In this document: piece after piece, positions 11,676 through 43,985 of the stretch
Layout: the number at the start of each line of letters is the position of its first letter
Numbering within the stretch: the first letter of the stretch is position 1
Assembly (NCBI RefSeq): GCF_000760695.4
Contig: NZ_JHEG04000001.1
Location: 8,655,123 to 8,719,122 of the forward strand
Source: Tolypothrix bouteillei VB521301
GTDB taxonomy: Bacteria > Cyanobacteriota > Cyanobacteriia > Cyanobacteriales > Nostocaceae
Reading direction: 5' to 3'
Length of the DNA stretch: 64,000 nucleotides
The notes under the pieces: model-generated
The model's database searches: none
What the model was told of the DNA's origin: nothing
Seen by the model: only the letters and a program-made list of their open reading frames with translations
Position numbers and translations under genes: made by a program

Positions 11676-11716
11676 TGATTTCCTCAGAAAGCCCTTATGT
11701 TCTCTTTTTAAGGTGT
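11676..11716 (+). promoter_or_regulatory. 11-bp-spaced regulatory box, copy 1
   Basis: CTCAGA at 11683 and CTTATG at 11694 sit 11 bp apart inside the conserved block ATGATTTCCTCAGAAAGCCC. The block is shared with the copies at 32619, 39409 and 43941. It lies about 180 bp upstream of the divergent regulator/kinase operon and 240 bp upstream of the AI-2E remnant. The remaining 11498-11958 sequence is AT-rich, with a small direct repeat (TAACTTCTTTAGATGTAACA-like, about 11815-11855) and no gene. Confidence 0.6.
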
Positions 11717-11958
11717 AGAAGCATCCATCTTCAAGCAGTGTGGAATTGTTTCAGCAACTCATCGAGCTACTTGGTGGATGCTAAGTAACAATATCCTTCT
11801 TTTTTAGATGTAACAAACAACTTCTTTAGATAACTTCTTTAGATGTAACAAATAACTGTTGCATCTAACACATAAGGGAACAGCGTACAAATAAAATTCT
11901 AGGTTAAAGGGAGTAGATGGGTGAATGAACGATCGCAGCAAAACCAGTTTCCAAACCC

Positions 11959-12198
11959 GTGTTTAACACCCTACAAAAACACATCAGCCCAGGATGGTTG
12001 ATGGTGCTGATATTTCCCATCCTCATTTTGGATACATGGTTAGCGATCGAAACGCTCCAGTACTTTCAACCTCTGGTGGCGATCGTGATTCTGGCAGCAC
12101 TTCTAGCATTCATCCTGAACTATCCCGTTCAATTTCTTCAGCAGCATGGTAACAGACACAGTATTGCAGCGGTTGTCGTCTTTCTCCTTACCTTATAG
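11959..12198 (+). pseudogene. AI-2E/PerM-family transporter, N-terminal remnant
   Basis: 79 residues from GTG 11959. The two initial hydrophobic segments and the loop LLAFILNYPVQFLQQHGNRH resemble the N-terminus of AI-2E family (PerM/YdiK-like) membrane proteins, which usually have about 340-380 residues. A TAG at 12196 ends it; a few codons after it (ILMG) could still belong to the family, then similarity is lost. Probably an inactive fragment. Confidence 0.6.
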
Positions 12199-12664
12199 AT
12201 CCTGATGGGTTAAATTATTATGTCTAAAATTTTGTTTGTGAGACTGATATATTAGTAAAATCATAACTTAATTCAAGTATTTATAGAACTTGATCTATCA
12301 ATTATGACAAAAAATCTGTTCCCATCTTATTGCTAATAATTGAGAATAGCGAAGATGTCTTAGATCCGAGTTTTGACGCTTTCTTATCGTTTTTTTAGAG
12401 AAAAAAAGTATAATTTTATTCTTATTTTAGAGATTTCATTGAGTAATTCCCGTTTGTGACAGTTAGGGTGCGGAATGGGGGATATAACTATTACTTACCA
12501 ACTTTTTTGACCGGGCTTATTGACTTACCTTACGATCGCCTGTTACTGAATCGGTGTTCTAGCTCACCAATAAAACCGAAAGTTATTTCAACAAATTAGT
12601 CAATAGTTAACAGTAAACTGTTTTCAGTTGGGAGTCAAAGTTCCCCACCACTATTGCGTGCTAC
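12199..12664. other. Intergenic, no gene seen
   Basis: AT-rich sequence with many stops in all frames; no RNA gene or recognisable element found. Confidence 0.4.
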
Positions 12665-12697
12665 GTTTGAGTTGGAGATTTAGACCCCAACTCAAAC
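12665..12697 (-). terminator. Hairpin after hdeD
   Basis: A perfect 11-bp inverted repeat GTTTGAGTTGG / CCAACTCAAAC with an 11-nt loop, 20 bp past the hdeD stop codon. No long T-run follows on the minus strand, so it may end transcription poorly or stabilise the 3' end. Confidence 0.5.
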
Positions 12698-12717
12698 TTT
12701 GATAACTGATAACTGCT

Positions 12718-13278
12718 TTAAACTCTTGCCCTATGGTCAAGAAGACTACGAGAAGCTAATGAAAGCAGGATCATCCAAAGGCCCGTCAACAAAAAATTAA
12801 TCCCTACAAATACTCCCAATACCCAAACTGTGCTGATCGGCCATTGATACAGAATCAAAATCCCTAGAATAATAGCCATGATACCGCTAAATAGTACCCA
12901 ACCCCAGTTTGGATCTCGACGCATTTGAAATGCTGCAATCACCTCCAATACACCCTCCATAAAAATGATAAATCCAAAAGCTAAAGTGAGAGAGAGCGCA
13001 GCACCAAAGATGTTGCTAATCAACAAAATTCCACCAATTACGTATAGAATACCAACTACTAGTGTTGTCCAGAAGCCTCGTTTGTGACGTGATTGAAATG
13101 CATGAACAATTCGGACGATGCCAGCAATAATTAAAGTCCAGGAGAATACGATTGTGATGGCAATAGTGGCAATAAATGGTTCTGCGATCGCTGCAATTCC
13201 CAGCAGAATCATCAAAACACCTAAGACAATTGCCAATGCTGAATTTTTTCTGGTTTCTCTAAAATCTTCAGAAGTCAT
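12718..13278 (-). CDS. hdeD: HdeD-family membrane protein
   Basis: 186 residues with six predicted membrane helices in three repeated hairpins, e.g. LGVLMILLGIAAIAEPF, VGILYVIGGILLI and SGIMAIILGILILYQWP. The recurrent 'GxxxxxxGIxxI' pattern and length are typical of HdeD/DUF308 acid-resistance proteins of the inner membrane; the molecular function of the family is unclear. The gene follows clpB by 105 bp on the same strand, so it is probably the last gene of the dnaJ-cbpM-clpB-hdeD set. The same partner appears in enterobacterial stress-tolerance islands. Confidence 0.9.
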   Translation of the reverse strand: MTSEDFRETRKNSALAIVLGVLMILLGIAAIAEPFIATIAITIVFSWTLIIAGIVRIVHAFQSRHKRGFWTTLVVGILYVIGGILLISNIFGAALSLTLAFGFIIFMEGVLEVIAAFQMRRDPNWGWVLFSGIMAIILGILILYQWPISTVWVLGVFVGINFLLTGLWMILLSLASRSLLDHRARV

Positions 13279-13383
13279 AGCTTTTCAAAAAATGTTTTGA
13301 TATGTTGTTAAATCTTGAAAGAGAGACGCGATTAACCCTTGTCTGTACAAGAGTTATCTCTCCCTTGTGCTCCTCTGCCCTCT

Positions 13384-16005
13384 CTAAGCGTTGACCAGTT
13401 CAGGTGATAAGCACTTCAACACCAGTCGTTCATGTTCCACATGGACGTAGATTGTGTCGCCTTCGTGGAACTCGCCGCGTAGAATCGCTTTGGCAATCGG
13501 AGTTTCTAGTTCTCGCTGAATCGCCCGCTTCAGGGGACGAGCACCGTAAACTGGGTCATAACCGACCTGAACAATCCAATCGAGAGCCTCGTCGGAGATT
13601 TTAAGCAAGAGTTTACGCTCGCGCAGTCGCTCCTCTAAATGCTGCACTTGTAGTTTGACAATTTCGCGCAACTCGTCCTTCCGCAAGCTATGGAAGATAA
13701 TGATTTCATCAATGCGGTTGAGGAATTCGGGGCGGAAACTTTCTCGAACTGCTTCCATGACGCGATCGCGCATTTGTTCGTACTTGCTATCATCTCCTGC
13801 CACATCCAAAATGTATATTGAACCAATATTGCTTGTCATAATCGCGATCGTATTTTTAAAATCTACTGTGCGTCCCTGAGAATCAGTTAGGCGACCATCA
13901 TCCAGGATTTGCAGCAGGACGTTGAATACATCAGGATGAGCTTTCTCAATTTCGTCAAACAGAATTACAGAATAAGGTCGGCGGCGAATCGCTTCGGTGA
14001 GTTGTCCACCTTCTTCATAGCCCACGTAACCTGGAGGTGCACCGATGAGACGGGCAACAGCGTGTTTCTCCATGTATTCGGACATATCGATCCGCACCAG
14101 TGCATCTTCAGTATCAAACAGATATTCCGCTAAAGCTTTTGCCAGTTCTGTTTTTCCCACCCCGGTCGGGCCTAAGAAAATAAAGCTAGCAATGGGACGA
14201 TTCGGGTCTGCTAACCCAGCACGGGAACGTTGAATTGCATCAGCAACAGCTCTTACAGCTTCGTCCTGACCAATCACACGTTTATGTAGCTCTTCTTCCA
14301 GATGCAAGAGTTTTTGCATTTCCGATTCAACCAGTCTGCTTACCAGAATACCCGTCCATTTGGAGATAATTTCGGCAATGTCAGCTTCGGTGACTTCTTC
14401 GCGCAACAGAGATTTACCGCTAGTCTGGATTTGAGCTAGTCGCGCTTCGGCTTCTTTTAGTTGTCGTTGCAGCTCAGTGAGTTTGCTGTATTTCAGTTCT
14501 GCTGCCCGGTTGAGGTCGTAATCGCGTTCGGCTTGCTGAATTTCTACATTGACACGCTCAATCTCTTGTCTAATTTGGCGAATGCGATCGATGATTTGCT
14601 TCTCTGCTTGCCATTGAGCATTGAGGGCATCTTGGCGTTCTTTTAACTCTGCAAGTTCTCTCTCCAGCCGTTCTAACCGCTCTCTGGAAGCACTGTCTGT
14701 TTCTTTTTGCAGTGACAGCCGCTCCATTTCCAGTTGCAGAATTTTGCGATCGATTTCGTCTAATTCTTCTGGTTTGGAAGTAATTTCCATTTTTAGTTTA
14801 GCCGCAGCTTCATCCACCAAATCAATAGCTTTGTCGGGTAGGAAGCGATCGCTAATATATCTCGCAGACAGAGTAGCTGCCGCAACTAACGCACTATCAG
14901 AAACCTTCACGCCATGGTGTAACTCGTAGCGCTCTTTCAAACCGCGCAGAATTGAGATGGTATCTTCCACACTGGGCTGATCGACATACACCTGCTGAAA
15001 ACGACGTTCCAAAGCCGCATCTTTTTCAATATACTTGCGGTATTCATCTAGCGTGGTGGCACCAATACAGCGCAGTTCGCCGCGAGCAAGCATTGGCTTG
15101 AGCAAGTTGCTAGCATCCATCGATCCTTGCGTTGCACCCGCACCAACTACAGTGTGAATTTCGTCAATGAACAAGACGATTTGTCCCTGTGCTTCTTGGA
15201 TTTCTTTTAAGACAGCTTTCAGGCGTTCTTCAAATTCTCCCCGGTATTTGGCTCCGGCAATTAACGCACCCATGTCTAAAGCTATTAGTTTGCGATCGCG
15301 CAATGATTCCGGGACATCACCACTGACAATGCGCTGCGCTAATCCTTCTACAATTGCCGTTTTACCGACACCAGGTTCACCAATCAGCACGGGGTTATTT
15401 TTAGTCCGACGAGAAAGGATTTGAATCGTGCGACGAATTTCTTCATCTCGTCCAATCACTGGGTCGAGTATGCCCTCATGTGCCAATTGGGTTAAATCGC
15501 GTCCGTATTTTTCTAGCGCTTCATATTTAACTTCCGGGTTTTGATCTGTCACTTTTTGACTCCCTCGAATCTGTTGAATGATGTTGCGGAGTTTTTTTTC
15601 ATCCAGTCCAAATTCTTGAAACAACCCTTTACCAAAGCGATCGTCTTTGGCAAAAGCTAGTATTAAATGTTCAATAGAAATATATTCATCACCAAACTCT
15701 TTGCGGTATTGTTCAGCGCGATCGAGCAGCGTCTCTAAACTGTGTCCGATGTATACCGAACCACTGCTAGCCCCCGATACTTTGGGCTGACGGTTGATGA
15801 AGTCGATAGTGCGCTCGTGTAGTTTTTGAACATTTACCCCGGCTTTGTTGAAAATAGAACTGGCGAGTCCTTCCTGTTTTAATAGCGCTGGCATCAAATG
15901 TTCGCTCTCAATCTGCTGATGCTGAAACTGCTTGGCAATTTCGGGAGTCCGAACAAGGGCTTCCCAGGCTTTTTCGGTAAATTGCTCGGGATTGGTTGGT
16001 TGCAT
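13384..16005 (-). CDS. clpB: ATP-dependent disaggregase ClpB
   Basis: 873 residues, full family length. N-terminal Clp_N double repeat (1-145); AAA1 with Walker [10 protein letters not shown] and Walker B LFIDEIH; the long coiled-coil M domain (about 405-525), which separates ClpB from ClpA/C; AAA2 with GPTGVGKTE and [10 protein letters not shown], arginine finger region [10 protein letters not shown]; and the C-terminal D2-small domain. It extracts polypeptides from aggregates together with DnaK/DnaJ, both encoded in this window. cbpM ends 44 bp upstream. Cyanobacteria usually hold two or more ClpB copies; linkage to dnaJ, yfdX and hdeD suggests this is the accessory, stress-dedicated one. 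Confidence 0.97.
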
Positions 16006-16049
16006 AATCGTGCCCCTTAGCTGAGAAATAAATTATTTTGTTAACGCTC

Positions 16050-18470: not shown

Positions 18471-18584
18471 GATTATTCTCCTGATTTGTAAACTTGCTTT
18501 GCGCCTGGGATAGATACCTTTTTCGCCGCGATCGAACATCTGTACCTTTTTGGGTCTAAGGATTATTCAGGTTTTCCGCTACAA

Positions 18585-23976: not shown

Positions 23977-23986
23977 AGTGATTTGC

Positions 23987-29290: not shown

Positions 29291-31180
29291 TTACTTTTGT
29301 TCCACAAAGTCTGCATCGATGACATCTTCACCGCCGCCTTGACGGTCTGTAGAAGTACCACCGTTTGGAGATGCACCTGCTTGTGAGTAAACCGCAGTGC
29401 CGATTTGCATCAGGGCTTGTTGAATTTCGTTGGTGAGAGACTTCATGCGATCGATGTTGTTCTGCTCAATTGCCTGACGCAAGTCTCGAATTAAGCCTTC
29501 CACGCGGGACTTGTCTGCTGGTGGCACTTTGTCGCCCAAATCCTGAAGTTGTTTCTCGGCTTGATAGGCAACAGAATCTGCCATGTTTTTGGTATCAATT
29601 TGTTCGCGCCGCCTACGGTCTTCTTCCGCATTGCGCTCGGCTTCTTTCACCATCCGTTCTACTTCAGATTTGTCCAGGGTGGACGCACCTGTGATGCTAA
29701 TAGACTGTTCTTTACCTGTGGCTTTTTCTCTGGCAGTTGCTGACAGAATCCCGTTAGCATCAATGTCAAAAGTAACTTCGATCTGTGGCATACCTCTGGG
29801 AGCTGGAGGAATCCCATCTAGTCGGAAGGTTCCCAGGCTCTTGTTGTCGGATGCCATTTCGCGTTCACCTTGCAGAACATGGATTTCTACGTTTGTTTGT
29901 GCGTCAGCCGCCGTTGAGAACACCTCAGACTTCTTCACTGGGACAGTGGTATTGCGCGGAATAATCTTGGTCGTCACACCACCTAGAGTTTCAACACCCA
30001 GCGACAACGGCGTGACATCTAGGAGCAGTACGTCTTTTACCTCACCCCCAAGCACACCCGCCTGAATTGCTGCACCCACTGCTACGACTTCATCCGGGTT
30101 GACACCCTGGTGTGGGTCTTTGCCTATTATCTGCCGTACCAGTTGCTGGACAGCTGGCATTCGAGTTGCACCACCCACTAGGATGACTTCGTCAATATTT
30201 GCGGGACTCAGTTTAGCATCGCGCAGAGCTTGTTCGACAGGAATGCGGCTGCGATCGAACAAGTCGGCGCACATTTGCTCGAACTGTACCCGCGTTAAGG
30301 TCATATCTAGATGTTTCGGGCCTTCCGGGGTTGCGGTAATAAAAGGTAAGTTAATGTTCGTCTGTGTTGCGCCTGACAGTTCAATTTTGGCTTTTTCTGC
30401 TGCTTCGGTGAGGCGTTGCAGGGCTTGTTTGTCTTTACGGAGGTCGATGCCTTCGTTACGCTGGAATTCGGTTGCTAGCCAGTCTACAATTCTCTTATCA
30501 AAGTCATCACCGCCCAAGTGGGTGTCGCCACTGGTAGCTTTCACTTCAAACACACCATCACCCACTTCTAGGATAGACACGTCAAACGTTCCACCACCTA
30601 AGTCAAAGACTAGGATGGTTTCATTGGTTTTTTTGTCAAGTCCGTAGGCGAGGGCAGCCGCCGTTGGCTCGTTGATAATTCGCAGAACTTCAATCCCGGC
30701 AATTCTACCGGCATCTTTGGTAGCCTGCCGTTGAGAGTCATTGAAATAGGCAGGGGTGGTAATTACCGCTTGCCTCACTGGTTCCCCCAGATATGTGCTG
30801 GCATCATCTATTAGCTTGCGGACTACCTCAGCCGCGATTTCTTCGGGTGAAAATTCCTTGTTCAGAGCGGGACAGTGTAGCTTGACATTGCCATTACTGT
30901 CACGTACTACTTTGTAAGTAACTTGTTTTGCCTCTTGGGTGACTTCATCATACCTGCGCCCGATGAACCGCTTCACAGAATAAAAAGTGTTTTCTGGGTT
31001 CATTACACCCTGGCGCTTGGCAATTTGCCCGACAAGTTTTTCGCCCTTCTTGGTGTAGGCAACCACAGACGGAGTTGTGCGACCACCTTCTGTGTTCGGA
31101 ATAACGACGGGTTGTCCGCCCTCTATTACAGCTATACAGGAGTTGGTAGTTCCTAAATCAATACCAACGATTTTTGCCAT
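29291..31180 (-). CDS. dnaK: Hsp70 chaperone DnaK
   Basis: 629 residues from ATG 31180, with AGGAGG upstream; a start at 31189 lacks one. Nucleotide-binding domain with [19 protein letters not shown] and [10 protein letters not shown]; linker [19 protein letters not shown]; beta-sandwich substrate domain; helical lid. The C-terminus ends [15 protein letters not shown], close to the EEVD-like end DVIDADF of bacterial DnaK. It works with the CbpA/DnaJ and ClpB coded at 13-17 kb. It stands alone between a dsbA-like gene and a stress protein gene, not in a grpE-dnaK-dnaJ operon. Confidence 0.97.
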
Positions 31181-31423
31181 CGTCAGCAACCTCCTTCAAA
31201 GATTAAGATAAAAAATTAAGAGTCTGGATTTAGGACAAGTTGAATAAATGGTATTAAGAAGGCAGAGGGCAGAAGGGGAAACCCCATAAATAAATTTAGG
31301 GGATTTAACAACGGCTTCTGAAAGTAAGGATTTCCCGACTTGAGCAAACTGGCGTGGGCTTGTGACCTTTTGTCAGAGGGAAGAATCTATCCTTGAACCT
31401 TCTGCTCTCTGGCTCCTTAGCAC

Positions 31424-31990
31424 TCAGGATTCAGCTGCGTTTTCAATTGCGGCTAACAATGCGCGGAGGTCGTAAGAGCCATCGTGGCGCACACCGTTGA
31501 TGAAAAAAGTCGGCGTGCCGTTGACCCCGCTCTGGATTCCGCTGAGTAAGTCTTCGCGTATCTTGGCTACGTGGGCGTGCTCGGCGAGTTCGTGACTCAA
31601 CCGAGGCACATCAAGACCGAGGTTAGCGGCATATTCTATTAGATGTTTGCGATCGAGCGCCTGTTGATGTTCAAAGAGATGGTTGTGCATCTCCCAGAAC
31701 TTACCTTGCGCCCCAGCTGCCTCTGCTGCTTCTGCTGCCTGCTCGGCGTGGGGATGTATGCTAGTTAACGGGAAGTGTCGGTAGACAAAGCGCATGAGAT
31801 CCCCGGTCAACTGCTGGAGTTCTTTGACGATGAAATGGGCACGACCGCAATAGGGGCACTCATAGTCGCCGTATTCCACGAGGGTGACGGGTGCGTTTTT
31901 TGGCCCTCGGATATGGTCGCGTTCACCTTCAGGTGTGCCGAAGGCATCGCTAACTGGGAGGCTAAGTTCGCCTGTTGCTGTTGTAATCAT
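31424..31990 (-). CDS. DsbA-like thioredoxin-fold protein, cytoplasmic
   Basis: 188 residues. Active site CPYC in VEYGDYECPYCGRAHF, cis-Pro loop NGTPTFFING, and an inserted helical domain (HAEQAAEAAEAAGAQGKFWE). No signal peptide or membrane anchor, so it differs from periplasmic DsbA and fits the DSBA-like (Thioredoxin_4) group seen next to NhaA or Hsp genes. It begins 45 bp after hsp20, almost certainly in the same transcript. Confidence 0.88.
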   Translation of the reverse strand: MITTATGELSLPVSDAFGTPEGERDHIRGPKNAPVTLVEYGDYECPYCGRAHFIVKELQQLTGDLMRFVYRHFPLTSIHPHAEQAAEAAEAAGAQGKFWEMHNHLFEHQQALDRKHLIEYAANLGLDVPRLSHELAEHAHVAKIREDLLSGIQSGVNGTPTFFINGVRHDGSYDLRALLAAIENAAES

Positions 31991-32035: not shown

Positions 32036-32506
32036 TCACTGCCCTTGCCCGTTGCCTCTGTGCCCGTCACCTAAGTTTACTTTCACAACCTTGTTCCTAT
32101 CTTCTTCAGCCTTGGGCAGCCTCAGCTTGAGAATGCCATCTTTGTATTCTGCTTGCACCCGATCGTGCTGGACACGGGTAGGCAACGGAATTACGCGCTG
32201 AAACCTGCCATAGCGGAATTCGGTGCGGGTGATGCCTCTTTCTTCCGTTTTGATTTCTGATTTCCGCTCACCGGAAATAGACACTGCCTCTGGCGATACC
32301 TGCACATCTAGGTCTTTGGGGTCTACACCGGGAATTTCTACCTTGAGATGAACCGCATCGGGGGTTTCTTGAATCTCTGCAGAGGGAATAAAGGCAATGC
32401 CTTCTTCTTCTCTACGACCTGTCGGTGCTATCTCATCAAACAAGCGGTTTAACTGCCGCTGCAAACTTTCAACTTCTCGGAAAGGTTCCCAACGAACGAG
32501 TGTCAT
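32036..32506 (-). CDS. Small heat-shock protein Hsp20
   Basis: 156 residues. The N-terminal arm MTLVRWEPFREVESLQRQLN is typical of class A bacterial sHsps. Alpha-crystallin domain about 42-142 with VHLKVEIPGVDPKDLDVQV and the A-x-x-x-G-x-L signature YKDGILKLRLPKAEE; C-terminal VVKVNLG in the place of the I-x-I motif. It is an ATP-independent holdase handing clients to DnaK/ClpB. A conserved regulatory box lies 110-155 bp upstream. Confidence 0.95.
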   Translation of the reverse strand: MTLVRWEPFREVESLQRQLNRLFDEIAPTGRREEEGIAFIPSAEIQETPDAVHLKVEIPGVDPKDLDVQVSPEAVSISGERKSEIKTEERGITRTEFRYGRFQRVIPLPTRVQHDRVQAEYKDGILKLRLPKAEEDRNKVVKVNLGDGHRGNGQGQ

Positions 32507-32618: not shown

Positions 32619-32661
32619 ACACTATAAAGAAGAAATCTAAGAACTTTCTGAGGAAATTATG
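32619..32661 (-). promoter_or_regulatory. 11-bp-spaced regulatory box, copy 2 (hsp20-dsbA)
   Basis: On the minus strand CTCAGA (32652-32647) and CTTAGA (32641-32636) are 11 bp apart, within ATAATTTCCTCAGAAAGTTC and followed by TATAGTGT. This is one of the four strongly conserved copies. The rest of 32662-32879 is intergenic, with a dispersed repeat at 32735-32800 and no gene. Confidence 0.65.
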
Positions 32662-32879: not shown

Positions 32880-34256
32880 TCACGTCTCATTAAGATTATG
32901 CCAACCGCCATCTGGGGGAATCATATGATCCGCCAAAGGAGGCCCCCAGCTATGGGGTGCGTATTCGTAAACAGGGGTTGCTTGATCTAGAATAGGAGCG
33001 ACAATTTGCCACTGTGCTTCTACCTCATCTTGGCGAGCAAACAACATGGAGTCGCCTTTCATGGCATCTTCAAAAAGCCGCTCGTAGGGATTCATTTCAT
33101 TGCCATGCTCGACTTGAGCGACTAGTCCGACTTCGCTACCCACCATTCCGTCGCCTGGGGTTTTAGAGCGAATGCCGATCGCAGTCAGCACATTTGGACT
33201 AAGACGAAAGTAAAAATAATTTGCTAATCCAAAGGCACGCTCGCCAAAAACATCCTGCGGCGGACGCTTGAGCCTGACCACAACTTCAGTAGTTGTACTC
33301 GGTAAACATTTGCCTGCACGAATATAAATCGGAACGCTAGCCCAGCGCCAAGTATCAATGTTGAGCTTAACCGCTGCGAAGGTTTCGACCTTGGAATCAG
33401 GAGCTACACCAGGTTCCTGGCGATAGCCCTTGTACTGCCCGCGCACTACATTTGAGGGTTCGATTGGATCTATGGATTTGAGCAATCGCGCTCTTTCATC
33501 TCGGATGGCTTCATGCTGCTCGTTGATGGGCGGATCAATCATTAAACACGCCGTCACCTGAAGTAGATGATTTTGCACCACATCCCGAATAGCGCCTGTC
33601 TCTTCATAAAACTGTCCCCGTCCATCGATGCCAAATTTTTCAGCCATCGTGATTTGGATGCTGGCAATACTGACGCGATGCCAAATCGGTTCGAGTAATG
33701 AATTGGCGAAGCGAGTGTAGAGAAGGTTTTGGACTGGTTCTTTTCCCAAGTAATGGTCAATCCGAAAAATATGACTTTCGGGAAAGATAGAGTGCAGAAT
33801 GCAGTTCAGTATTTTAGCCGATTTTAGATCGCGTCCAAAGGGTTTTTCTACCATAACACGACCATTCTTTACACAACTTGATTGACCTAACCCTTCGACA
33901 ACCGTCGCAAACAAACTGGGAGGAATGGCTAAGTAATACAGAGGAGCTTCAGCTATTTGGAGTACCTGGCATAATTTATCATAGGTGGCGCGATCGCTAT
34001 AATCACCACAAATATAGTAAAGTAATGAACATAGTTTCTGGAAAGCTACCTCATCAACTCTGGCCTGTTCCTCTAGGCTCTTACGCACATAAGATTGTAA
34101 TTGTTCGATGCTCCAATCTCGCCTACCCACTCCAATAATTGGAATGTCAAAATGACCGCGCTGAATCATCGCCTGTAAGGCAGGAAAGATTTTTTTGTAG
34201 GCTAAATCACTTGTGATCCCAAAAAATACCAGGGCATCGGAGAGTAAAGCTGCCAT
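32880..34256 (-). CDS. zwf: Glucose-6-phosphate dehydrogenase
   Basis: About 458 residues from ATG 34256 (GGAGG 7 nt upstream; the frame is open to 34502 but the extra part is not family-like). NADP loop FFGITSDLAYKKIFPAL in place of the usual G-A-S-G-D-L-A; catalytic RIDHYLGKEPVQN with the essential His and Lys; substrate region IQITMAEKFGIDGRGQFYEE; and DEVEAQWQIVAPILDQ near the end. It makes NADPH and 6-phosphogluconolactone. It follows a gnd-type gene 112 bp upstream. NADPH would feed the local AKR/SDR/ADH reductases. Cyanobacteria normally have zwf beside opcA and fbp/tal elsewhere, so this is probably a second, accessory copy. Confidence 0.93.
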   Translation of the reverse strand: MAALLSDALVFFGITSDLAYKKIFPALQAMIQRGHFDIPIIGVGRRDWSIEQLQSYVRKSLEEQARVDEVAFQKLCSLLYYICGDYSDRATYDKLCQVLQIAEAPLYYLAIPPSLFATVVEGLGQSSCVKNGRVMVEKPFGRDLKSAKILNCILHSIFPESHIFRIDHYLGKEPVQNLLYTRFANSLLEPIWHRVSIASIQITMAEKFGIDGRGQFYEETGAIRDVVQNHLLQVTACLMIDPPINEQHEAIRDERARLLKSIDPIEPSNVVRGQYKGYRQEPGVAPDSKVETFAAVKLNIDTWRWASVPIYIRAGKCLPSTTTEVVVRLKRPPQDVFGERAFGLANYFYFRLSPNVLTAIGIRSKTPGDGMVGSEVGLVAQVEHGNEMNPYERLFEDAMKGDSMLFARQDEVEAQWQIVAPILDQATPVYEYAPHSWGPPLADHMIPPDGGWHNLNET

Positions 34257-34368
34257 GATTAACCTCCATATCGACGCGGAGAGGGGAAGCAGGGGGGACT
34301 CGGGGCCCCCTCTGGGGATAGGGGGGAAAGGGGAGCAGAGGGGAAGAAAGCTGATTAAAATCCCCGCG

Positions 34369-35456
34369 TCATTGTTCCAGATGCCCACCGAACTCGTAGC
34401 GCAACGCAGAAATGAGTTTATTGGCAAAGTCTGATTGACCGCGAGAGCTAAATCGTGTGTAGAGGGCTGTACTAAGGACGGGAACAGGAACTCCTTCTTC
34501 AATGGCTGCCATTAGTGTCCATCGACCTTCTCCAGAGTCAGGTACGCGCCCCTCGAAATTGGCTAAGTCGGGGTCTTTGAGAAGGGCGATCGCGATTAAA
34601 TCAAGTAACCAAGAACTAATCACGCTCCCCCTGCGCCACACCTCTGCTATATCTGCGAGATTAAAGTCGTATTGGTAGAATTCCGGATTTCGCAAGGGAG
34701 CCGTTTCTGCATCGACTTGATGCAATTGTTTCCCAATATTAGCATGGTGAAGAATGTTCAACCCTTCGGCATAAGCTGCCATGATGCCGTATTCAATGCC
34801 GTTGTGAACCATTTTGACAAAGTGCCCTGCACCGTGAGAGCCACAATGCAAATAGCCCTGTTCAGCCGTTCCCCCCATTAACTCACGACCAGGGGTGTGC
34901 GGTGCAGCTGATACACTAGGAGCTAGCGCTGCAAAAATGGGGTCAAGATATTTCACCACCGCCAATGCACCACCAATCATGAGACAGTAGCCGCGTTCTG
35001 CCCCCCAAATGCCACCGCTAGTTCCACAATCAATGTATTCAATTCCTTTGACTTTTAATTGATCTGCACGACGAATGTCATCAATGTAGTGAGAATTGCC
35101 ACCATCAATGATAATGTCGTCAGCGTCTAGAAACGGCATGAGAGTTTCCATTTTTAGTAAGTCTCAGGTATGCCATCCCCGATGATAATGTCGTCAGCGT
35201 CTAGAAACGGCATGAGAGTCTGTAGGGTAGCATCTACTGTCGCGGCGGGTAGCATCAGCCAGACGGTGCGGGGTGGCGTGAGTGCTTCGATGAGTTCAAC
35301 GAATAATGTTACACCACGGGCGATCGCTCCTTCCTGAACCAGCACCTCTGCTTTTTGTGGCTGACGAGTGTAGCCAATGATGGTATGTCCAGCCTGGGTT
35401 AGACGGTGTGCCATGTTAGCTCCCATTCGTCCTAGTCCTATCATTCCCAGTTCCAT
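34369..35456 (-). pseudogene. gnd: 6-phosphogluconate dehydrogenase (YqeC/GndA-like), frameshifted by a 74-bp insertion
   Basis: The N-terminal part from ATG 35456 (MELGMIGLGRMGANMAHRL, Rossmann GLGRMG) reads to DADDIII and then shifts to a stop at 35154. The second frame, 35151-34369, resumes with the same DADDIII and continues with [39 protein letters not shown] (catalytic Lys/Asn) and a full C-terminal domain. Removing 74 bp restores one frame of about 337 codons, near the 300-330 residues of the family. The cause is a 38-bp direct repeat (35108-35145, 35182-35219). Translation would give two pieces. Whether the gene is dead or still yields complementing halves is open; a sequencing or assembly duplication is also possible. 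Confidence 0.85.
35108..35219. repeat. 38-bp direct repeat inside gnd
   Basis: Positions 35108-35145 and 35182-35219 are identical (ATGATAATGTCGTCAGCGTC ...), separated by 36 bp of sequence that does not obviously belong to gnd. The 74-bp period is not a multiple of three and breaks the reading frame. Confidence 0.92.
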
Positions 35457-35470
35457 AACATCCCCTGTAT

Positions 35471-35962
35471 TCAAGTGAGAAAAATTGGGAGTATCCATCC
35501 CGCAATAGCACCAATAGCGCAGATAGCTGTTAGAATCAGGAAAACCTCAGTTCGGCTAAACTCTATTTCCAGCAAATTTTCGACGGACTGGTCTAATGCC
35601 ATATCCAGGGTAAAAATGCCAATCCAGGATAGAGCGATCGCTATTGCCCAGCCGAGGAATCCGCTTGATATCGATGCTCCAGTTAGAATCCATGCAGAAC
35701 CGAATGTGAGAGATAACAATCCCGCCCAGACGGGAAAGCCAGTGAGTATGCATGCACGGACTGCGGCAATTGCCAAAATGAACATTGGTATTGCAATCGT
35801 CGAAAAATGGCGATTGAGCCAGAGAGTCCATCCCAATCCTCCATATCCCAGCATTAGCACCGTCAGCCAAACTAGACTATAGAAAAAATATTTCCAATAA
35901 AAATCTTTTGTTTCTGGTCGGTTATGGTCTTGTTCAAATGTAGTTACAATTTTGTTAACCAT
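35471..35962 (-). CDS. Small integral membrane protein, unknown
   Basis: 163 residues. A charged N-terminus (HNRPETKDFYWKYF) precedes four to five hydrophobic helices (YSLVWLTVLMLGYGGLGWTL, AIPMFILAIAAVRACIL, WAGLLSLTFGSAWILTGA, IALSWIGIFTLDMAL, VFLILTAICAIGAIAGWILP). I do not recognise the family. It stops 14 bp before the gnd start and so probably leads a membrane protein-gnd-zwf operon; a regulatory box lies about 110-130 bp upstream. Confidence 0.7.
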   Translation of the reverse strand: MVNKIVTTFEQDHNRPETKDFYWKYFFYSLVWLTVLMLGYGGLGWTLWLNRHFSTIAIPMFILAIAAVRACILTGFPVWAGLLSLTFGSAWILTGASISSGFLGWAIAIALSWIGIFTLDMALDQSVENLLEIEFSRTEVFLILTAICAIGAIAGWILPIFLT

Positions 35963-36068
35963 AGGTCTTATACCTTTCTACAAAGACGAATCAGTTAATC
36001 AAGCCTGAATCTAGGATTTGTCCAATTTTTCCCATTTCCTTATCTTCTTAACGAATCTGCCCTAACGT

Positions 36069-36098
36069 TAGTTGGCAAATCTAAGGAAAATCTGAGCA
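36069..36098 (-). promoter_or_regulatory. 11-bp-spaced regulatory box, copy 3
   Basis: On the minus strand CTCAGA (36097-36092) and CTTAGA (36086-36081) are 11 bp apart, in CTCAGATTTTCCTTAGATTT. It lies upstream of the membrane protein-gnd-zwf genes, in a divergent intergenic region that also holds copy 4. Confidence 0.55.
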
Positions 36099-36168: not shown

Positions 36169-36196
36169 CTCATTTTTTGCTTAGATTATCTCGCTA
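36169..36196 (+). promoter_or_regulatory. 11-bp-spaced regulatory box, copy 4
   Basis: CTCATT (36169) and CTTAGA (36180) are 11 bp apart, with TCGCTA a further 11 bp on (36191). It lies 63-90 bp before the start codon at 36259, on the opposite strand from copy 3. This is a weaker match than copies 2, 6 and 7. Confidence 0.45.
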
Positions 36197-36258
36197 CAAT
36201 TCCCACGTTGATCTAGTAATTAGCTCATGCTGCAAGAAGAACCCTGGAGAGTGAGATC

Positions 36259-37158
36259 ATGACTAAACCGATTCAAATTCTGTTACAGACAACAATTCCC
36301 ACCAATGAAGATGATTGGTATATTGGGCGATTCTCTTTGCTAAAGGACTATTTAGCTTCGTTAAAAAGTGACACTGGGGAACCCCTGTACCAAGTAACAG
36401 CAAGGGATCGAGAAAATACTGCTGAAAAAAACGATCCAGTTTTAAGTACGCTAGATAATTCAGATTTTGATGAACTGTGGCTGTTTGCTGTGGATGTAGG
36501 GGATGGCATAACTCCACAGGAGTGTCAGAGCATTAGTGCCTTCCGTCAGCGCGGCGGCGGTTTATTGGTCAGCCGTGACCATCAGGATGTAGGTTGTTCG
36601 GTTTGCAATCTTGGTGGTGTCGGCGCAGCGCATTACTTTCACAGTAAGAATCCCGATCCCGATCCCTCGCACCACTACCCTGATGACAGCTACACTCAGT
36701 ATATTTCCTGGCCCAACTTCCATTCTGGGTTAAATGGTGACTACGAGAAAATTACTCCTATAGAACCTATTCATGACTTACTCAAGAATCCTACATCACC
36801 TTCTGAGGAGATTGAATTCTTTCCGGCTCATCCCCATGAAGGAGCCGTAGGTGTGCCTGCAAACGAGAAGAATGCACGAGTAATTGCCTTGGGTACAAGC
36901 TCAGTCTCCGGTCGGGACTTTAACTTAGTAATTGCTTTTGAAAGTACCCAGGATGAACAAGGAAATATTTTAGGACGTGCGATCGCTGAATCAAGCTTCC
37001 ACCATTTCGCCGACTACAATTGGGATGTTGATATGGGCGCACCTAGCTTTGTAACCGAACCCCCTGGAGATGGGATGAAGCAAAACCCACAAGCCCTTGA
37101 ACATATTAAAGCCTATGTGCGAAACTTAGCCCTCTGGCTGGCTCCTACCTCAAGTTAA
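36259..37158 (+). CDS. Conserved protein of unknown function, possibly amidotransferase/ThuA-like fold
   Basis: 299 residues, soluble, no signal peptide. The N-terminal part alternates strands and helices (PIQILLQTTIPTNEDDWYIG; DELWLFAVDVGDGITPQECQ; SAFRQRGGGLLVSRDHQDVG), as in class-I amidotransferase or ThuA-like proteins. The His-rich middle (AHYFHSKNPDPDPSHHYPDD) and SSFHHFADYNWDVDMGAP could bind metal. No catalytic Cys in a GxCxG nucleophile elbow is seen. GAGAGTGAG precedes the ATG. It is one of the few plus-strand genes of the region and has its own regulatory box. The function assignment is a guess from fold pattern. Confidence 0.6.
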   Translation: MTKPIQILLQTTIPTNEDDWYIGRFSLLKDYLASLKSDTGEPLYQVTARDRENTAEKNDPVLSTLDNSDFDELWLFAVDVGDGITPQECQSISAFRQRGGGLLVSRDHQDVGCSVCNLGGVGAAHYFHSKNPDPDPSHHYPDDSYTQYISWPNFHSGLNGDYEKITPIEPIHDLLKNPTSPSEEIEFFPAHPHEGAVGVPANEKNARVIALGTSSVSGRDFNLVIAFESTQDEQGNILGRAIAESSFHHFADYNWDVDMGAPSFVTEPPGDGMKQNPQALEHIKAYVRNLALWLAPTSS

Positions 37159-38672: not shown

Positions 38673-38678
38673 TATTTA

Positions 38679-39107
38679 CTAGGTGTCTAGCTCCCAATTC
38701 AAAGCAGATGCGATCGCCCGGTGCAATGTCAGCGGGTCAAAGGGTTTGGCTATGATTCCTTTAACTCCTAGTGTTTCATAATGATGGGGTTCGAGTAATC
38801 CAGCCTGTGCAGTCAAAAACACCACAGGTATAAACTGCATTTCCGGCTTAGCCCACAGTGCATCCAGAAACATATAGCCATCCATTTTTGGCATCATAAT
38901 GTCCAGCAGGATCGCATCTGGTTGTTCAGCGCTCGCCTTGAGTAACGCTTCTTCTGCCGATGTCGCGGTAATGACAGTCCATTGGGCTATTTTTTCCAAG
39001 CAGGTTTGCACTACCCATTGCACATCAGGTTCGTCGTCAATTAACAAGATGCGCTTTGATGCAGAGGTCACCATCATCGTCTGTAACAGCACTGTACCGC
39101 CTCTCAT
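38679..39107 (-). CDS. Single-domain response regulator (REC)
   Basis: 142 residues from ATG 39107, or about 132 from ATG 39077. Complete receiver: LLIDDEPD, phospho-Asp in AILLDIMMPKMDG, Thr in FLTAQ, Lys in IAKPFDP. No output domain. It is similar in build to the regulator at 3971-4387 (helix TCLEKIAQWTVITATSAEEA versus LKGWTVLTSESVEAG), so it may share the same kinase. A regulatory box with three 11-bp-spaced hexamers lies about 50-80 bp upstream. Confidence 0.88.
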   Translation of the reverse strand: MRGGTVLLQTMMVTSASKRILLIDDEPDVQWVVQTCLEKIAQWTVITATSAEEALLKASAEQPDAILLDIMMPKMDGYMFLDALWAKPEMQFIPVVFLTAQAGLLEPHHYETLGVKGIIAKPFDPLTLHRAIASALNWELDT

Positions 39108-39158
39108 AAAAGAAAAGACTATAAACCATTGAAGTAACTACCTATAAAAGATCAATAA

Positions 39159-39186
39159 TTTAAGGAAATTGTGAGGCGATTCTGAG
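39159..39186 (-). promoter_or_regulatory. 11-bp-spaced regulatory box, copy 5
   Basis: Minus strand CTCAGA (39186-39181), CTCACA (39175-39170) and CTTAAA (39164-39159), each 11 bp from the next, upstream of the REC gene. The rest of the 39108-39471 gap contains copy 6 and no gene. Confidence 0.55.
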
Positions 39187-39408
39187 CGATTAGCATCACC
39201 AGGCTACAACTCTGTTCTACTCTTGGTTCTAAAGATAGGTTACTACCAATATCGTGTCTGGTTAAGTGCTTATAAAATCCAAAATGCGAAAGCTACACGG
39301 CTTTCATTTTAAATAAACTCGGAATTTTTTGTGAGATAGATGAGGAGTGTAGTTGAACAGGCTCATTAAGATGCGATCGCGACTCAACAACTCCTGCGAA
39401 TTCACTAT

Positions 39409-39450
39409 AATTTCCTCAGAAAGCCCTTAGATTTTCCCTCTAGGGTGTCA
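39409..39450 (+). promoter_or_regulatory. 11-bp-spaced regulatory box, copy 6 (luxR)
   Basis: CTCAGA (39415), CTTAGA (39426) and CCTCTA (39437) at 11-bp steps, inside ATAATTTCCTCAGAAAGCCC and followed by TAGGGTGTCAATC. It ends 22 bp before the LuxR start codon. This is the clearest copy, with three in-phase half-sites. Confidence 0.68.
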
Positions 39451-39471
39451 ATCATCACTGAGGATACTTCT

Positions 39472-40062
39472 ATGACATTACCTTTATTATTAAGCCAACA
39501 AGATGATTTCGAGCAGTTAAAATCTGCGGCTCCAATTGATTTTGGCTCTCTCTTCATCTGGAAGGTCGTTGCAATTGCATTGCAAAACCAACCAGATAGG
39601 TTGCTTGAAACCACCGATGAAAAACATCTCCTGAACAACACAACAAAATATAAACGTCACGATCGGTCGTTTTCTAGACTGCCTCAATCAGACTGCAACT
39701 TTGCTTTGAACGGTGCGTTCATTGATGTTGCTCAAGAAGTTGCTAGGCTACTTCAGCAATCTCAACCCTTTCATTGTGAGGGCATCATCAACCATTCTGC
39801 TAAGACGATCGCCATTCGAGCGATCGAGCCAGAGTACAAGCAAATCATTAACGTTGAGCCGTTAACTGAACGGGAGCGAGAGGTGTTGCAACTGATTATT
39901 GACGGTCTCAACAACCTGGCGATCGCCCAGAAGCTTCACATTACTACGGGTACGGTGAAAAGTCATGTTCGCAATATTTTGAAGAAACTCTGCGTTCATA
40001 ACCGCACTCGGCAGCAATTCGAGCACTGCGTGCGGGTCTTGTCCACTAACAAACAAGAATGA
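39472..40062 (+). CDS. LuxR/GerE-type transcriptional regulator
   Basis: 196 residues from ATG 39472 (GAGG 9 nt upstream; a GTG at 39445 would lie inside the regulatory box). The C-terminal helix-turn-helix is canonical: LTEREREVLQLIIDGLNNLA, then TGTVKSHVRNILKKLCVHNR. The N-terminal 125 residues are not a receiver or PAS domain that I can name; no phospho-acceptor Asp pocket is seen. The gene directly precedes the fdhA pseudogene and the cNMP/TrxR gene on the same strand and could control them. Confidence 0.85.
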   Translation: MTLPLLLSQQDDFEQLKSAAPIDFGSLFIWKVVAIALQNQPDRLLETTDEKHLLNNTTKYKRHDRSFSRLPQSDCNFALNGAFIDVAQEVARLLQQSQPFHCEGIINHSAKTIAIRAIEPEYKQIINVEPLTEREREVLQLIIDGLNNLAIAQKLHITTGTVKSHVRNILKKLCVHNRTRQQFEHCVRVLSTNKQE

Positions 40063-40140
40063 ATTAAAAATTAAAAGTGGCTGCCAGCCTGGGGTTCCCA
40101 TTTTTAATTTTGCATTGTCTGAAATCAGGAGAAACAAATC

Positions 40141-41070: not shown

Positions 41071-41182
41071 AGAGCAAGATCTGACACCAAGACAGCGTAA
41101 GCCGCAGCGGAAGTTTGTGTTTGGCGGCAAGTGGGGAAAGGTGTCGTCAATTGTATCGCGATCAAGAACGAGGATTTCAATC

Positions 41183-42820
41183 ATGGCATTAGAGCATCAC
41201 CCGATCGCGTTTCCCAAACTCGACGATGAACAGATCGTGGCATTGGGCAAATTCGCCAAACTTAAAGCATTTCAGGCAGGCGAGACACTGTTTGCGGAAG
41301 GCACACCAAATTACCAATTCTTCGCGATCAAGCGTGGTGAAGTTGCGATCGTCGATCGTTCCTCTGGTCACGATCGGATCGTCACAATCCACGAGCCGGG
41401 GGAGTTTACGGGGGATGTGGATATTTTGACAGGTAGACCGGCTGTTGTTAGGGCGATCGCCCACTCCAACTGTAAGGTGTATGAGATTGCAGCAGACGAT
41501 CTACGACGGATTTTGAATGAAATGCCACGACTGAGTGATGTCTTACTCCGGGCATTTCTGATGCGCTGTCAGTTGCTTGAGGAATCCGGCTTTGTAGCCG
41601 TCAGGGTGGTCGGTTCACGCTATTCCCCTGAAACTCATCGAATTCGCGAGTTTCTGGCGAAAAATAAGGTTCCCTTTACCTGGATCGATCTGGAAAACGA
41701 TCCTCAAGTTGACACACTGCTGACACAGTTCAGGATCAGTGAAGATGAAACCCCAGTTGTGATTTGCGGCAACGATAAGCTACTGAAAAATCCTTCGATG
41801 GCTGAGTTGGCTGACTGCCTCGGCATTAAAAAACCGATCGAACACACCATCTATGATTTGGTAGTCGTGGGCGCGGGTCCGGCGGGGTTGGCGGCAGCGA
41901 TTTACGGCGCATCGGAGGGCTTGAAAACCCTCGTATTGGACAAAATGGGTCCGGGTGGGCAGGCGGGCAGCAGTTCCAAAATCGAGAATTACATGGGCTT
42001 TCCAACGGGTCTTTCCGGTAGCGATCTGGCAAATCGAGCCGCGATCCAGGCTGAGAAATTTGGGGCTATATTAACGGCACCAGCGGAAGTAGTTCAACTG
42101 AGCCGTGAAACTGGGTACTACGCGCTGCGACTAGAGAGCGGCGAAGAAATCTCTGCTAAATGCATTCTAATCTGCGCGGGTGCGTCCTATCGCAAACTTG
42201 CCGTTGAGGGCTACGATCGCTTTGAAGGCTCCGGCATTTACTACGCAGCGACAACGGTGGAAGCTCTGCTGTGCCAGGATGCCCAGGTGGTCGTCGTGGG
42301 TGGCGGCAATTCTGCGGGTCAGGCGGCAGTTTTCCTCTCCGAACAGACTCAAAAAGTCTTTTTGCTAATTCGGGGCGGTGATCTGGGAAAAACCATGTCT
42401 CATTACCTGGTGCAGCGGATTGAGCAAACGCCCAACATCGAAGTGCAATGCTACACCGAAATCTGCAAAATGTACGGCAACAAGTGGCTCGAAGCCGTTG
42501 AGGTGTTTTGCAGTCAAACCGGACAAGCTGACACGATTAAATGTTTGGCAATCTTTGTCTTTATCGGTGCTGTGCCGCATACGAAATGGTTGCCAGAAGC
42601 CATTCAGTGCGATCGCAACGGGTTTGTCAAGACAGGTCTGCGAGTGATGGAGTCAGGCGAGTGGACGCTGCGTCGCCAACCCTTTCTGCTGGAGACCAGT
42701 CTTCCCGGCATTTTTGCAGCGGGAGACGTGCGGCTGGGTTCCATCAAGCGGGTGGCTTCTGCCGTCGGAGAAGGGGCAATGGCAGTGCAGTTCGTTCATG
42801 AGTACCTGGCTTCCAGTTAA
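41183..42820 (+). CDS. cNMP-binding / glutaredoxin-like / thioredoxin reductase-like flavoprotein
   Basis: 545 residues from ATG 41183, with a GAGG-type site upstream. Domain 1 (about 10-125) is a cyclic-nucleotide/CAP-type sensor (FQAGETLFAEGTPNYQFFAI; GEFTGDVDILTGRPAVVRAI). Domain 2 (about 140-215) is a thioredoxin/glutaredoxin fold (VVGSRYSPETHRIREFLAKN; TPVVICGNDKLL). Domain 3 (about 228-545) is a TrxR-like FAD/NAD(P) oxidoreductase: VVVGAGPAGLAAAIYGASEG, GPGGQAGSSSKIENYMGFP, VVVVGGGNSAGQAAVFLS, FAAGDVRLGSIKRVASAVGE. The redox CxxC expected before VVVVGGG is absent (YYAATTVEALL), as is a CxxC in domain 2, so it cannot act as a classical thioredoxin reductase. It is probably cytosolic; substrate unknown. 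Confidence 0.9.
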   Translation: MALEHHPIAFPKLDDEQIVALGKFAKLKAFQAGETLFAEGTPNYQFFAIKRGEVAIVDRSSGHDRIVTIHEPGEFTGDVDILTGRPAVVRAIAHSNCKVYEIAADDLRRILNEMPRLSDVLLRAFLMRCQLLEESGFVAVRVVGSRYSPETHRIREFLAKNKVPFTWIDLENDPQVDTLLTQFRISEDETPVVICGNDKLLKNPSMAELADCLGIKKPIEHTIYDLVVVGAGPAGLAAAIYGASEGLKTLVLDKMGPGGQAGSSSKIENYMGFPTGLSGSDLANRAAIQAEKFGAILTAPAEVVQLSRETGYYALRLESGEEISAKCILICAGASYRKLAVEGYDRFEGSGIYYAATTVEALLCQDAQVVVVGGGNSAGQAAVFLSEQTQKVFLLIRGGDLGKTMSHYLVQRIEQTPNIEVQCYTEICKMYGNKWLEAVEVFCSQTGQADTIKCLAIFVFIGAVPHTKWLPEAIQCDRNGFVKTGLRVMESGEWTLRRQPFLLETSLPGIFAAGDVRLGSIKRVASAVGEGAMAVQFVHEYLASS

Positions 42821-42856
42821 ATGAACTGGGGATTACAGAATCGATAGGAGGATGAC

Positions 42857-43117
42857 ATGGTAATACAATGCACACATCTCAATCAAATTCGGAGAGTGAC
42901 ACCCAGCACAAGAGGGTGTAGAGAGTGTCTGATGCTGGGAGACCCTTGGGTACACCTGCGTGTGTGCTTAACCTGTGGTCATGTTGGTTGCTGCGATGAA
43001 TCTAAGAACAAACATGCCACACGGCATTTTCTTGCGACGCATCATCCCATCATTCAGTCGTTTGAACCAGGGGAGGATTGGATGTGGTGCTATGTCGATG
43101 AGGTGTTCATGGACTAA
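42857..43117 (+). CDS. UBP-type zinc finger protein
   Basis: 86 residues; GGAGG precedes ATG 42857. The whole protein is one ZnF-UBP domain: CTHLNQ, GCRECLMLGDPWVHLRVCLT, CGHVGCCDESKNKHATRHF, THHPIIQSFEPGEDWMWCYV. The Cys/His ligands are in place. In eukaryotes the fold binds the ubiquitin C-terminus; bacterial single-domain copies have no known ligand. It starts 36 bp after the flavoprotein and ends 30 bp before the TrkA-C gene, so the three are an operon. Bacterial copies commonly sit beside cNMP/TrxR genes, which suggests a functional link. Confidence 0.92.
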   Translation: MVIQCTHLNQIRRVTPSTRGCRECLMLGDPWVHLRVCLTCGHVGCCDESKNKHATRHFLATHHPIIQSFEPGEDWMWCYVDEVFMD

Positions 43118-43147
43118 CAGCGTTAACCGAAATCGGAGGTATTAGGG

Positions 43148-43915
43148 TTGAAAGCACTTGTGTCACTTCTACTTGCCGTTACCCTGTCGTTGTTAATCAT
43201 GCGTATTGCTGCCGAAGCCCTGATCCTGACTGGGCTATCTCGTGAGACGGCTGAATTTCAGGCACATTCAGCGATTACGGGTTCGGGCTTTACCACCAGC
43301 GAATCAGAACAGGTGGTTACCCATCCCGTGCGGCGACGTATCCTCATGTGGTTGATGTTGCTGGCGAATGCCGGATTGATTACGGTGATTTCCTCCTTAG
43401 TCCTTACATTCATCAGCGCAGCTAAGCTCAGCAATTGGCTGCCTCGTCTCGTGCTGCTGGTGCTAGGAATAGCAATTCTTTGGATCGTAGCAATTAACCG
43501 TTGGATCAAGCATTTCCTCTCCCATTGGATGCAATGGGCGTTGCGCCGCTGGACTCGCCTGGATGTGCGAGATTATGCCAGCCTGCTGCACCTATCGGAT
43601 GGCTATGCGGTGATGGAACTGCAAGTGGATGCAGGAGATTGGATTGCTGACAGACCGCTGCGGGAAACCAACCTCCGTCAAGAGGGGATTATAGTGTTGG
43701 GGATTCTCCGCCCTGATGGAGCATACCTTGGCGCACCGAGAGGAACAACCTTTATCCGTCCCAACGATGTGGTGCTCTTGTATGGTCGCCTGGATGCCTT
43801 CAGTGAATTGGATTCGCGTCAGGCGGGAAGTACAGGTGAACAGGCTCACCAGGATGCGATCGCCGATCATCAACAACTCCTTTTAGAACGCGCTCGCCAA
43901 GATGCAGCCAAGTAA
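43148..43915 (+). CDS. Membrane protein with C-terminal TrkA-C (RCK_C) domain
   Basis: 255 residues from TTG 43148; GGAGGT 7 nt upstream supports this unusual start. Three membrane helices (VSLLLAVTLSLLIMRIAAEA; RRRILMWLMLLANAGLITVI; LVLLVLGIAILWIVAINRWI) are followed by a cytosolic TrkA-C domain (about 160-225: AVMELQVDAGDWIADRPLRE; GIIVLGILRPDGAYLGAPRG; RPNDVVLLYGR). TrkA-C domains bind ligands that gate K+ transport, but no pore or antiporter domain is present. It may be a regulator of a separate transporter. In tLST-type islands a KefB-like protein fills a comparable position. Confidence 0.8.
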   Translation: MKALVSLLLAVTLSLLIMRIAAEALILTGLSRETAEFQAHSAITGSGFTTSESEQVVTHPVRRRILMWLMLLANAGLITVISSLVLTFISAAKLSNWLPRLVLLVLGIAILWIVAINRWIKHFLSHWMQWALRRWTRLDVRDYASLLHLSDGYAVMELQVDAGDWIADRPLRETNLRQEGIIVLGILRPDGAYLGAPRGTTFIRPNDVVLLYGRLDAFSELDSRQAGSTGEQAHQDAIADHQQLLLERARQDAAK

Positions 43916-43940
43916 GGAACGTAACTTTCGCAAATTCGCC

Positions 43941-43985
43941 ATGATTTCCTCAGAAAATCCTTAGATTTTCCCTCTAGAGTTTCAA
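43941..43985 (+). promoter_or_regulatory. 11-bp-spaced regulatory box, copy 7
   Basis: CTCAGA (43949) and CTTAGA (43960), 11 bp apart, in ATGATTTCCTCAGAAAATCC, followed by CCTCTAGAGTTTCAAT. Nearly identical to copy 6. It lies 50-90 bp before the decayed ADH start codon, so the promoter outlived its gene. Confidence 0.65.

Follow-up and report, generated by a model that had tools for sequence, protein, structure and literature searches.

What reads the short repeated box that stands before several genes of a stress island in the cyanobacterium Tolypothrix bouteillei VB521301, and what would its copies do there? The stretch in question (contig NZ_JHEG04000001.1, positions 8,655,123 to 8,719,122; hereafter the window, 64,000 bp at full length) holds copies of CTCAGA-N5-CTYAGA-N9-TANNNT, in which two hexamers lie 11 bp apart and a −10 hexamer follows exactly 9 bp downstream of the second. 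In cyanobacteria the box accompanies one specific regulator gene, on plasmids as well as in genomes. Judged from sequence, the boxes are most likely activator-dependent promoters of an RcaC-type phosphorelay regulator (9440–11527) that would switch an island resembling tLST, the proteobacterial stress-tolerance island. Below, G numbers denote genomes and L numbers denote loci.

The original prediction listed seven copies with 11-bp-spaced half-sites. All seven are present, four of them exact; those at 11683(+), 36169(+), and 39186(−) are degenerate, and the copy placed at 36097(−) has its true start at 36096. Exact CTYAGA-N5-CTYAGA pairs start in the window at 32652(−), 36096(−), 39415(+), and 43949(+), each with TANNNT exactly 9 bp past the second hexamer. 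The composite box is thus matched exactly at four sites and with two mismatches at the three degenerate ones, no site having a single mismatch; 40 shuffles of the window gave 0, 0, and 0.35 sites per shuffle at 0, 1, and 2 mismatches, respectively. The five further window sites with three mismatches are at chance level, because shuffles give 4.65. A longer core said to be common to four copies was borne out: TTTCCTCAGAAA occurs exactly at 11679–11690(+), 32645–32656(−), 39411–39422(+), and 43945–43956(+) (at ≤1 mismatch, shuffle mean 0.68; 1 of 100 shuffles reached four).

The −10 element is needed for scanning, because the hexamer pair alone is not enriched in window or genome. Without it, the pair at ≤2 mismatches is found 20 times in the window, near chance (16.1 ± 3.65 in shuffles; 13 of 100 reach 20), and at ≤1 mismatch 100 times in the genome against 143 for the reversed control, so that the two-hexamer matrix at 11-bp spacing that had been suggested as a genome-wide test fails. 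The composite box has five exact sites in the genome of 9.95 Mb (control 0) and ten at ≤1 mismatch (control 2). Four of the five exact sites fall inside the 64-kb window (binomial 8.5e-9); the fifth, at C1:9353571, is divergent from the gene of an island-regulator paralogue with 39% identity.

Box anatomy was read from 32 boxes of the window and its relatives, picked with the composite in mind and with the −10 element partly built in. Information peaks at both hexamers, at the A and the last T of the −10 hexamer, and at a third, weak half-site that lies 11 bp upstream (CA at −9/−8); no −35 hexamer was seen by eye in these 32. Across 24 island loci the 11-bp spacing is found in 29 distinct exact pairs, a spacing of 13 bp in one, and spacings of 7–10, 12, or 14–17 bp in none; TANNNT stands at +26 in 25 of the 29. 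Because some of the 24 loci had been found with the composite, the geometry was recounted on 12 loci reached only via the regulator (271,744 bases). The number of distinct exact pairs in these loci is 14, of which 12 carry TANNNT at +26 (base rate per position, 0.013); no gap other than 5 yields more than one pair, and the reversed control yields none. The box thereby has two features of operators of the OmpR/PhoB class, namely direct repeats of about 11 bp and their location at the −35 place with a fixed distance to the −10. Head-to-tail 11-bp repeats are the OmpR/PhoB pattern, and PhoB activates from pho boxes, direct repeats that cover the −35 region at 11-bp steps.

Presence of the box follows presence of the regulator. 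A first composite (CTY in both hexamers, no NTT) scanned in 195 genomes gave 18 matches in 10 genomes against 7 in the control, so single matches of this form could have arisen by chance. When CTCAGA was required as the first hexamer and NTT behind the second (the stringent form), 388 genomes of the order gave 25 matches, spread over 12 of them, and the control gave 0. The same 388 genomes were searched with residues 130–400 of the regulator as query; 339 match at E 1e-18, plain OmpR-type proteins probably among them. Among the matches listed, the winged helix is at least 70% identical in seven genomes (G000, G085, G094, G139, G315, G350, G374), and six of these seven contain 19 of the 25 stringent matches (hypergeometric 1.4e-9, kinship ignored). 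Of eight named loci found by regulator homology, six have the box at ≤2 mismatches.

Conjugative plasmids provide a further set, reached by the regulator alone and not used in defining the box. Searching a plasmid collection by regulator homology returned plasmid C of Trichormus variabilis ATCC 29413 and p057_B of Nostoc C057, both typed conjugative; the regulator gene of plasmid C is AVA_RS28740. Their whole records hold 6 and 5 sites at ≤2 mismatches (control 0 and 2, respectively), four exact in each. The exact boxes of the T. variabilis plasmid precede hsp20, groES, a NADH:flavin oxidoreductase gene, and the gnd-zwf unit, and its sixth site (279433) has two mismatches; those of the C057 plasmid have the same targets with one difference: a transposase gene separates the second box from a downstream groEL, and groES is not listed there. 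Among the genes of both plasmids are clpB, cbpM, one of dnaJ type, two copies of yfdX, hdeD, and dnaK, and the window has corresponding kinds. In the plasmid stretches (L187, L188, L200, L201) the island is found together with partition, relaxase, and transposase genes, and with iscB on plasmid C.

The promoters of hsp20 allow genomes with and without the regulator to be set side by side. Thirty hsp20 loci were taken, of which 26 were parsed (L134, L147, L154, and L160 were left out; the hsp20 of G139 lies outside the 30). In regulator-bearing genomes the box is present at 0–1 mismatch in 5 of 5 parsed promoters; G374, unparsed in this set, has boxes before both island hsp20 copies, which brings the regulator-bearing genomes with an hsp20 box to 6 of 6 examined. 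In genomes without a close regulator among the matches listed, 0 of 21 parsed promoters have the box (≥4 mismatches), including those of G304 and G316, whose Hsp20 is 72–73% identical. In an alignment of nine hsp20 promoters associated with the regulator, of which four are near-copies, conservation is highest over the box, and the distant promoters have diverged in their flanks. In these respects the site itself, the constancy of its geometry, its conservation, and its joint occurrence with the regulator gene are matters of observation.

The putative cognate regulator (9440–11527, minus strand) has, by Pfam, a REC domain (residues 14–123), a PhoB-type winged helix (156–231; Trans_reg_C), an Hpt domain (280–369), and two more REC domains, three in all. 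By eye, D61 and D593 suit receiver aspartates, the motif usual in receivers is lacking from the middle REC, and the Hpt histidine may be His321. The closest solved relative of the DNA-binding domain by score is PhoB (1gxp, E 2.1e-15). The regulator gene is overlapped by four bases by that of a multi-PAS histidine kinase with an internal REC (4404–9443, minus strand; 1679 aa), and a single receiver-domain protein is encoded at 38679–39107 (minus strand), a possible RcaF-like phosphorelay intermediate; REC genes of 32–62% identity are found near many related regulators. All parts of the RcaC type are thus present: multiple REC, OmpR/PhoB winged helix, and Hpt in one protein, with kinase and single-REC genes in the window. 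G000 has at least five loci of RcaC-type regulators, similar over almost full length; a kinase or single-REC gene adjoins each of them except the locus at 9.35 Mb, beside which neither was detected.

Related regulators have variant boxes beside them. In 20 neighbourhoods of RcaC-type regulators, among them L065, which had been fetched for its box, CTYARA-N5-CTYARA-N9-TANNNT at ≤1 mismatch gave 12 sites in 10 loci (control 2); the CTCAAA form was first seen in L130 and L132. At ≤1 mismatch no box was found beside regulators with other helices (G033, G264, G281; the strain's own paralogues at 8.35 and 9.01 Mb), nor in the neighbourhoods of G077, G196, G225, G258, and G359. The stringent CTCAAA form has 10 matches in 9 of the 388 genomes (control 1); such a regulator is encoded within 3.5 kb of six of these matches and at about 10 kb from a seventh. 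Allocoleopsis franciscana is one organism with a regulator of the CTCAAA type. The recognition helix of the seven regulators near CTCAAA reads PQEEAVSTQI or PQEDAVSTQI; in the close group of the window regulator it reads PGEEAVTTQI in 11 of 12, the exception being CentMAGa with PSEEAVTTQV. For one member of this close group, G374b, the stretch fetched around it is without a box. The 9.35-Mb paralogue, which reads PTEEAVRTQI beside a CTCAGA box, speaks against a strict code from helix to hexamer. The helix and hexamer labels each change once on the tree, in two clades and hence by one or two events, and because each label amounts to one change their pairing is only suggestive. Tentatively, RcaC-type regulators may read a family-wide code of an 11-bp tandem hexamer with a −10 at 9 bp, the fifth hexamer letter (G or A) following the start of the recognition helix; paralogues could then run separate, predictable regulons, and the mobile stress island would carry a private pair of regulator and box between hosts.

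That a regulator of the OmpR/PhoB class would bind the box, as originally predicted, is supported by the spacing (29 pairs at 11 bp), the co-occurrence with the regulator, and the PhoB-nearest domain; further backing comes from the lack of the box in the 21 hsp20 promoters and from the changed hexamer beside a sister subfamily with a changed recognition helix. From these data we infer binding, activation rather than repression, the order of the phosphorelay, and the signal. The multi-PAS kinase (4404–9443) would feed in phosphate, perhaps via the single-REC protein (38679–39107); the phosphorylated regulator would bind head-to-tail on two (weakly three) 11-bp repeats, which would take the place of the missing −35, and would recruit RNA polymerase, PhoB-like, to the −10 hexamer 9 bp downstream. 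The output would be a stress programme of chaperones (Hsp20, DsbA, DnaK; GroES elsewhere), NADPH supply (gnd-zwf), and dehydrogenases, encoded in a movable island that is found on conjugative plasmids as well.

Other explanations of the box were weighed against this one. The same regulator might use it mainly as a repressing operator, the bound protein covering the promoter until stress releases it; RcaC activates or represses depending on the position of its L boxes (excerpt of PMC8256508). The box also overlaps the promoter. Repression is nevertheless unlikely, as inspection by eye showed no −35 and 9 bp separate the repeats from the −10, which resembles the arrangement in activation of the PhoB type. 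Two conserved blocks at fixed spacing could likewise be taken for the −35 and −10 of an alternative sigma factor promoter, which is very improbable given that the upstream block consists in turn of units repeated in tandem every 11 bp, the third of them weak, and that the presence of the element tracks the winged-helix regulator, variant boxes lying beside variant regulators (sigma genes were not searched for). Binding by another island regulator, such as the LuxR-type protein (39445–40062), has in its favour the location of this gene within the island, behind an exact box; beyond the window it was found only in L054 and L072 within the fetched stretches scanned, and head-to-tail 11-bp repeats are the pattern of OmpR/PhoB, so that this assignment is scarcely credible. 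Nor are the copies plausible as functionless leftovers of a recent duplication or transposition, for which the chance is close to nil: longer flanking similarity does exist in some boxes (L068_1034 and L068_3956; window and G374), but between distant hsp20 promoters only the box block is well kept, different gene families have the box but not the flanks in common, and the 21 parsed hsp20 promoters without the regulator are also without the box.

Activation by the RcaC-type regulator has several observations to contend with. Three of the seven window sites are degenerate; the box upstream of the regulator gene points the other way, and no box stands in the gene's own orientation. The stringent form was drawn up from first-composite matches, and the close kinship of plasmid and island copies means that many sites are not independent. 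In G315, which is among the seven regulator genomes listed, the hexamers are exact but TANNNT is missing at both sites, and the regulator loci L071 and the distant L073 are without a box at ≤2 mismatches, although the L071 genome (G374) has boxes elsewhere. Single stringent boxes occur in G004, G077, G196, G258, G274, and G359, where a close regulator is not among the matches listed. In G004, G196, and G258 the next frame after the box encodes a cysteine-rich protein of 77–81 aa (HTCxCCS...YWFCxxCxQ; L064:9848, L124:9292, L126:2018), for which no Pfam match was found in two tested; these boxes perhaps belong to another RcaC-type regulon.

Within the window, copies had been predicted to precede start codons in matching orientation; six do face a gene, and the seventh, 11683(+), is directed away from the regulator gene. 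This box (11683–11714, plus strand; CTCAGA-N5-CTTATG-N9-TAAGGT, two mismatches) has counterparts adjoining the regulator in L055/L066 (exact), L067, and L068 (one mismatch each). It faces a 79-aa frame at about 11959–12198 (plus strand) that matches the AI-2E transporter profile below threshold, over positions 1–60 of 327 (29.4 bits, cut-off 34.3); the L067 counterpart precedes a similar frame that leaves the contig after 95 aa, its AI-2E match likewise sub-threshold (29.3 bits, cut-off 34.3). The 79-aa frame is probably a truncated gene. A weak site proposed before yfdX at 18571(−) did not hold up, having three mismatches and no TANNNT at the due place; the T. variabilis plasmid has the identical letters, but in three other relatives the best site has at least five mismatches.

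The exact box at 32621–32652 (minus strand; CTCAGA-N5-CTTAGA-N9-TATAGT) starts 146 bp before hsp20 (32036–32506, minus strand), the first gene behind it; genes for a DsbA/thioredoxin-like protein (31424–31990, minus strand) and, next, DnaK (29291–31189, minus strand) follow. A second exact box (36065–36096, minus strand) starts 134 bp before the gene of a membrane-type protein (35471–35962, minus strand; assigned by eye, no Pfam match), the first of a unit with gnd (34369–35498, minus strand) and zwf (32880–34502, minus strand), and recurs before gnd-zwf in G374 and the two plasmids. The window gnd is split over two frames (34369–35151 and 35154–35498) and is a single coding sequence on the T. 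variabilis and Nostoc C057 plasmids; the window copy is either broken or affected by a sequencing error. The degenerate box at 36169–36200 (plus strand; CTCATT-N5-CTTAGA-N9-TACAAT) starts 90 bp before a gene at 36259–37158 (plus strand) for a conserved 299-aa protein without Pfam match; the site is kept before a gene of this type in G374 and on both plasmids. The protein is 98% identical in G374, where its gene is divergent from the gnd unit, and a hypothetical gene stands at the same place on both plasmids.

A degenerate triple box (39144–39186, minus strand; CTCAGA/CTCACA/CTTAAA) starts 79 bp before the single-REC gene, and REC genes in L059 and L121 are also preceded by boxes with two mismatches. 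The exact box at 39415–39446 (plus strand; CTCAGA-N5-CTTAGA-N9-TAGGGT), found also in L054 and L072, lies before the LuxR/GerE-type gene (39445–40062, plus strand), the start of which is likelier the ATG at 39472 because the listed GTG overlaps the −10. The last exact box (43949–43980, plus strand; CTCAGA-N5-CTTAGA-N9-TAGAGT) precedes a zinc alcohol dehydrogenase gene (44066–44754, plus strand) split over two frames. Elsewhere, genes behind boxes encode, by Pfam, Cpn10/GroES, universal stress protein, CBS-domain, DJ-1/PfpI, polyketide-cyclase-type, and DUF308 (HdeD-type) proteins. Phycobilisome or bilin genes were not found behind the boxes examined, whose genes are chaperone, redox, stress, signalling, or unnamed ones. 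The window also contains a TrkA_C-domain gene at 43148 and, at 48914–49720 (plus strand), a gene for a protein with an effector-associated domain EAD1 and a CHAT protease domain.

Known systems resemble this one in part. PhoB and its pho boxes are alike in the nearest solved DNA-binding domain (1gxp) and in the 11-bp repeats over the −35; here, however, the hexamer is CTCAGA/CTTAGA, the regulator is a multi-domain protein, and 9 bp separate the second hexamer from the −10. RcaC has an Hpt domain. The RcaE-RcaF-RcaC system of complementary chromatic acclimation in Fremyella diplosiphon has the same three kinds of part as the window, a likeness at the level of parts; unlike in that system, the window kinase is multi-PAS and not a phytochrome, and the targets are stress, redox, and NADPH genes and not phycobilisome genes. 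RcaC is described as three CheY-like receivers plus a winged-helix domain, with the kinase RcaE and the small CheY-like RcaF as partners (excerpt of PMC4390838). Similar parts make up RfpA-RfpB-RfpC of far-red photoacclimation: the receivers of RfpB flank the DNA-binding domain, RfpB is encoded in the cluster apparently under its control, and RfpC is its CheY-like partner (same excerpt). The photosynthesis cluster and the phytochrome input set that system apart.

The mobile island tLST comprises genes for a MerR-like protein, sHsp20, a Clp disaggregase, yfdX1/yfdX2, hdeD, and a thioredoxin gene, and for its control the MerR-like orf1 and Cpx repression are mentioned (excerpt of PMC8290217). 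The same kinds of gene occur in the window, and the plasmids are typed conjugative, a likeness at the level of gene kinds. Further genes of tLST are kefB and degP. In contrast to tLST, the disaggregase is ClpB-type and not ClpG/ClpK, and DnaK-DnaJ, gnd-zwf, and an RcaC-type phosphorelay and box of its own are added. No published account of island or box matched by title or start of abstract, in a search that omits most subscription journals.

To our knowledge, few cyanobacterial regulators of the RcaC-type class beyond RcaC and RfpB have assigned functions. The boxes would give a concrete, testable regulon to a class of regulator with many cyanobacterial relatives; if the pairing of helix and hexamer holds, the regulons of other RcaC-type paralogues would be predictable as well. 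The findings also point to the existence, in cyanobacteria, of a counterpart to the stress-tolerance island of proteobacteria, with a control circuit of its own.

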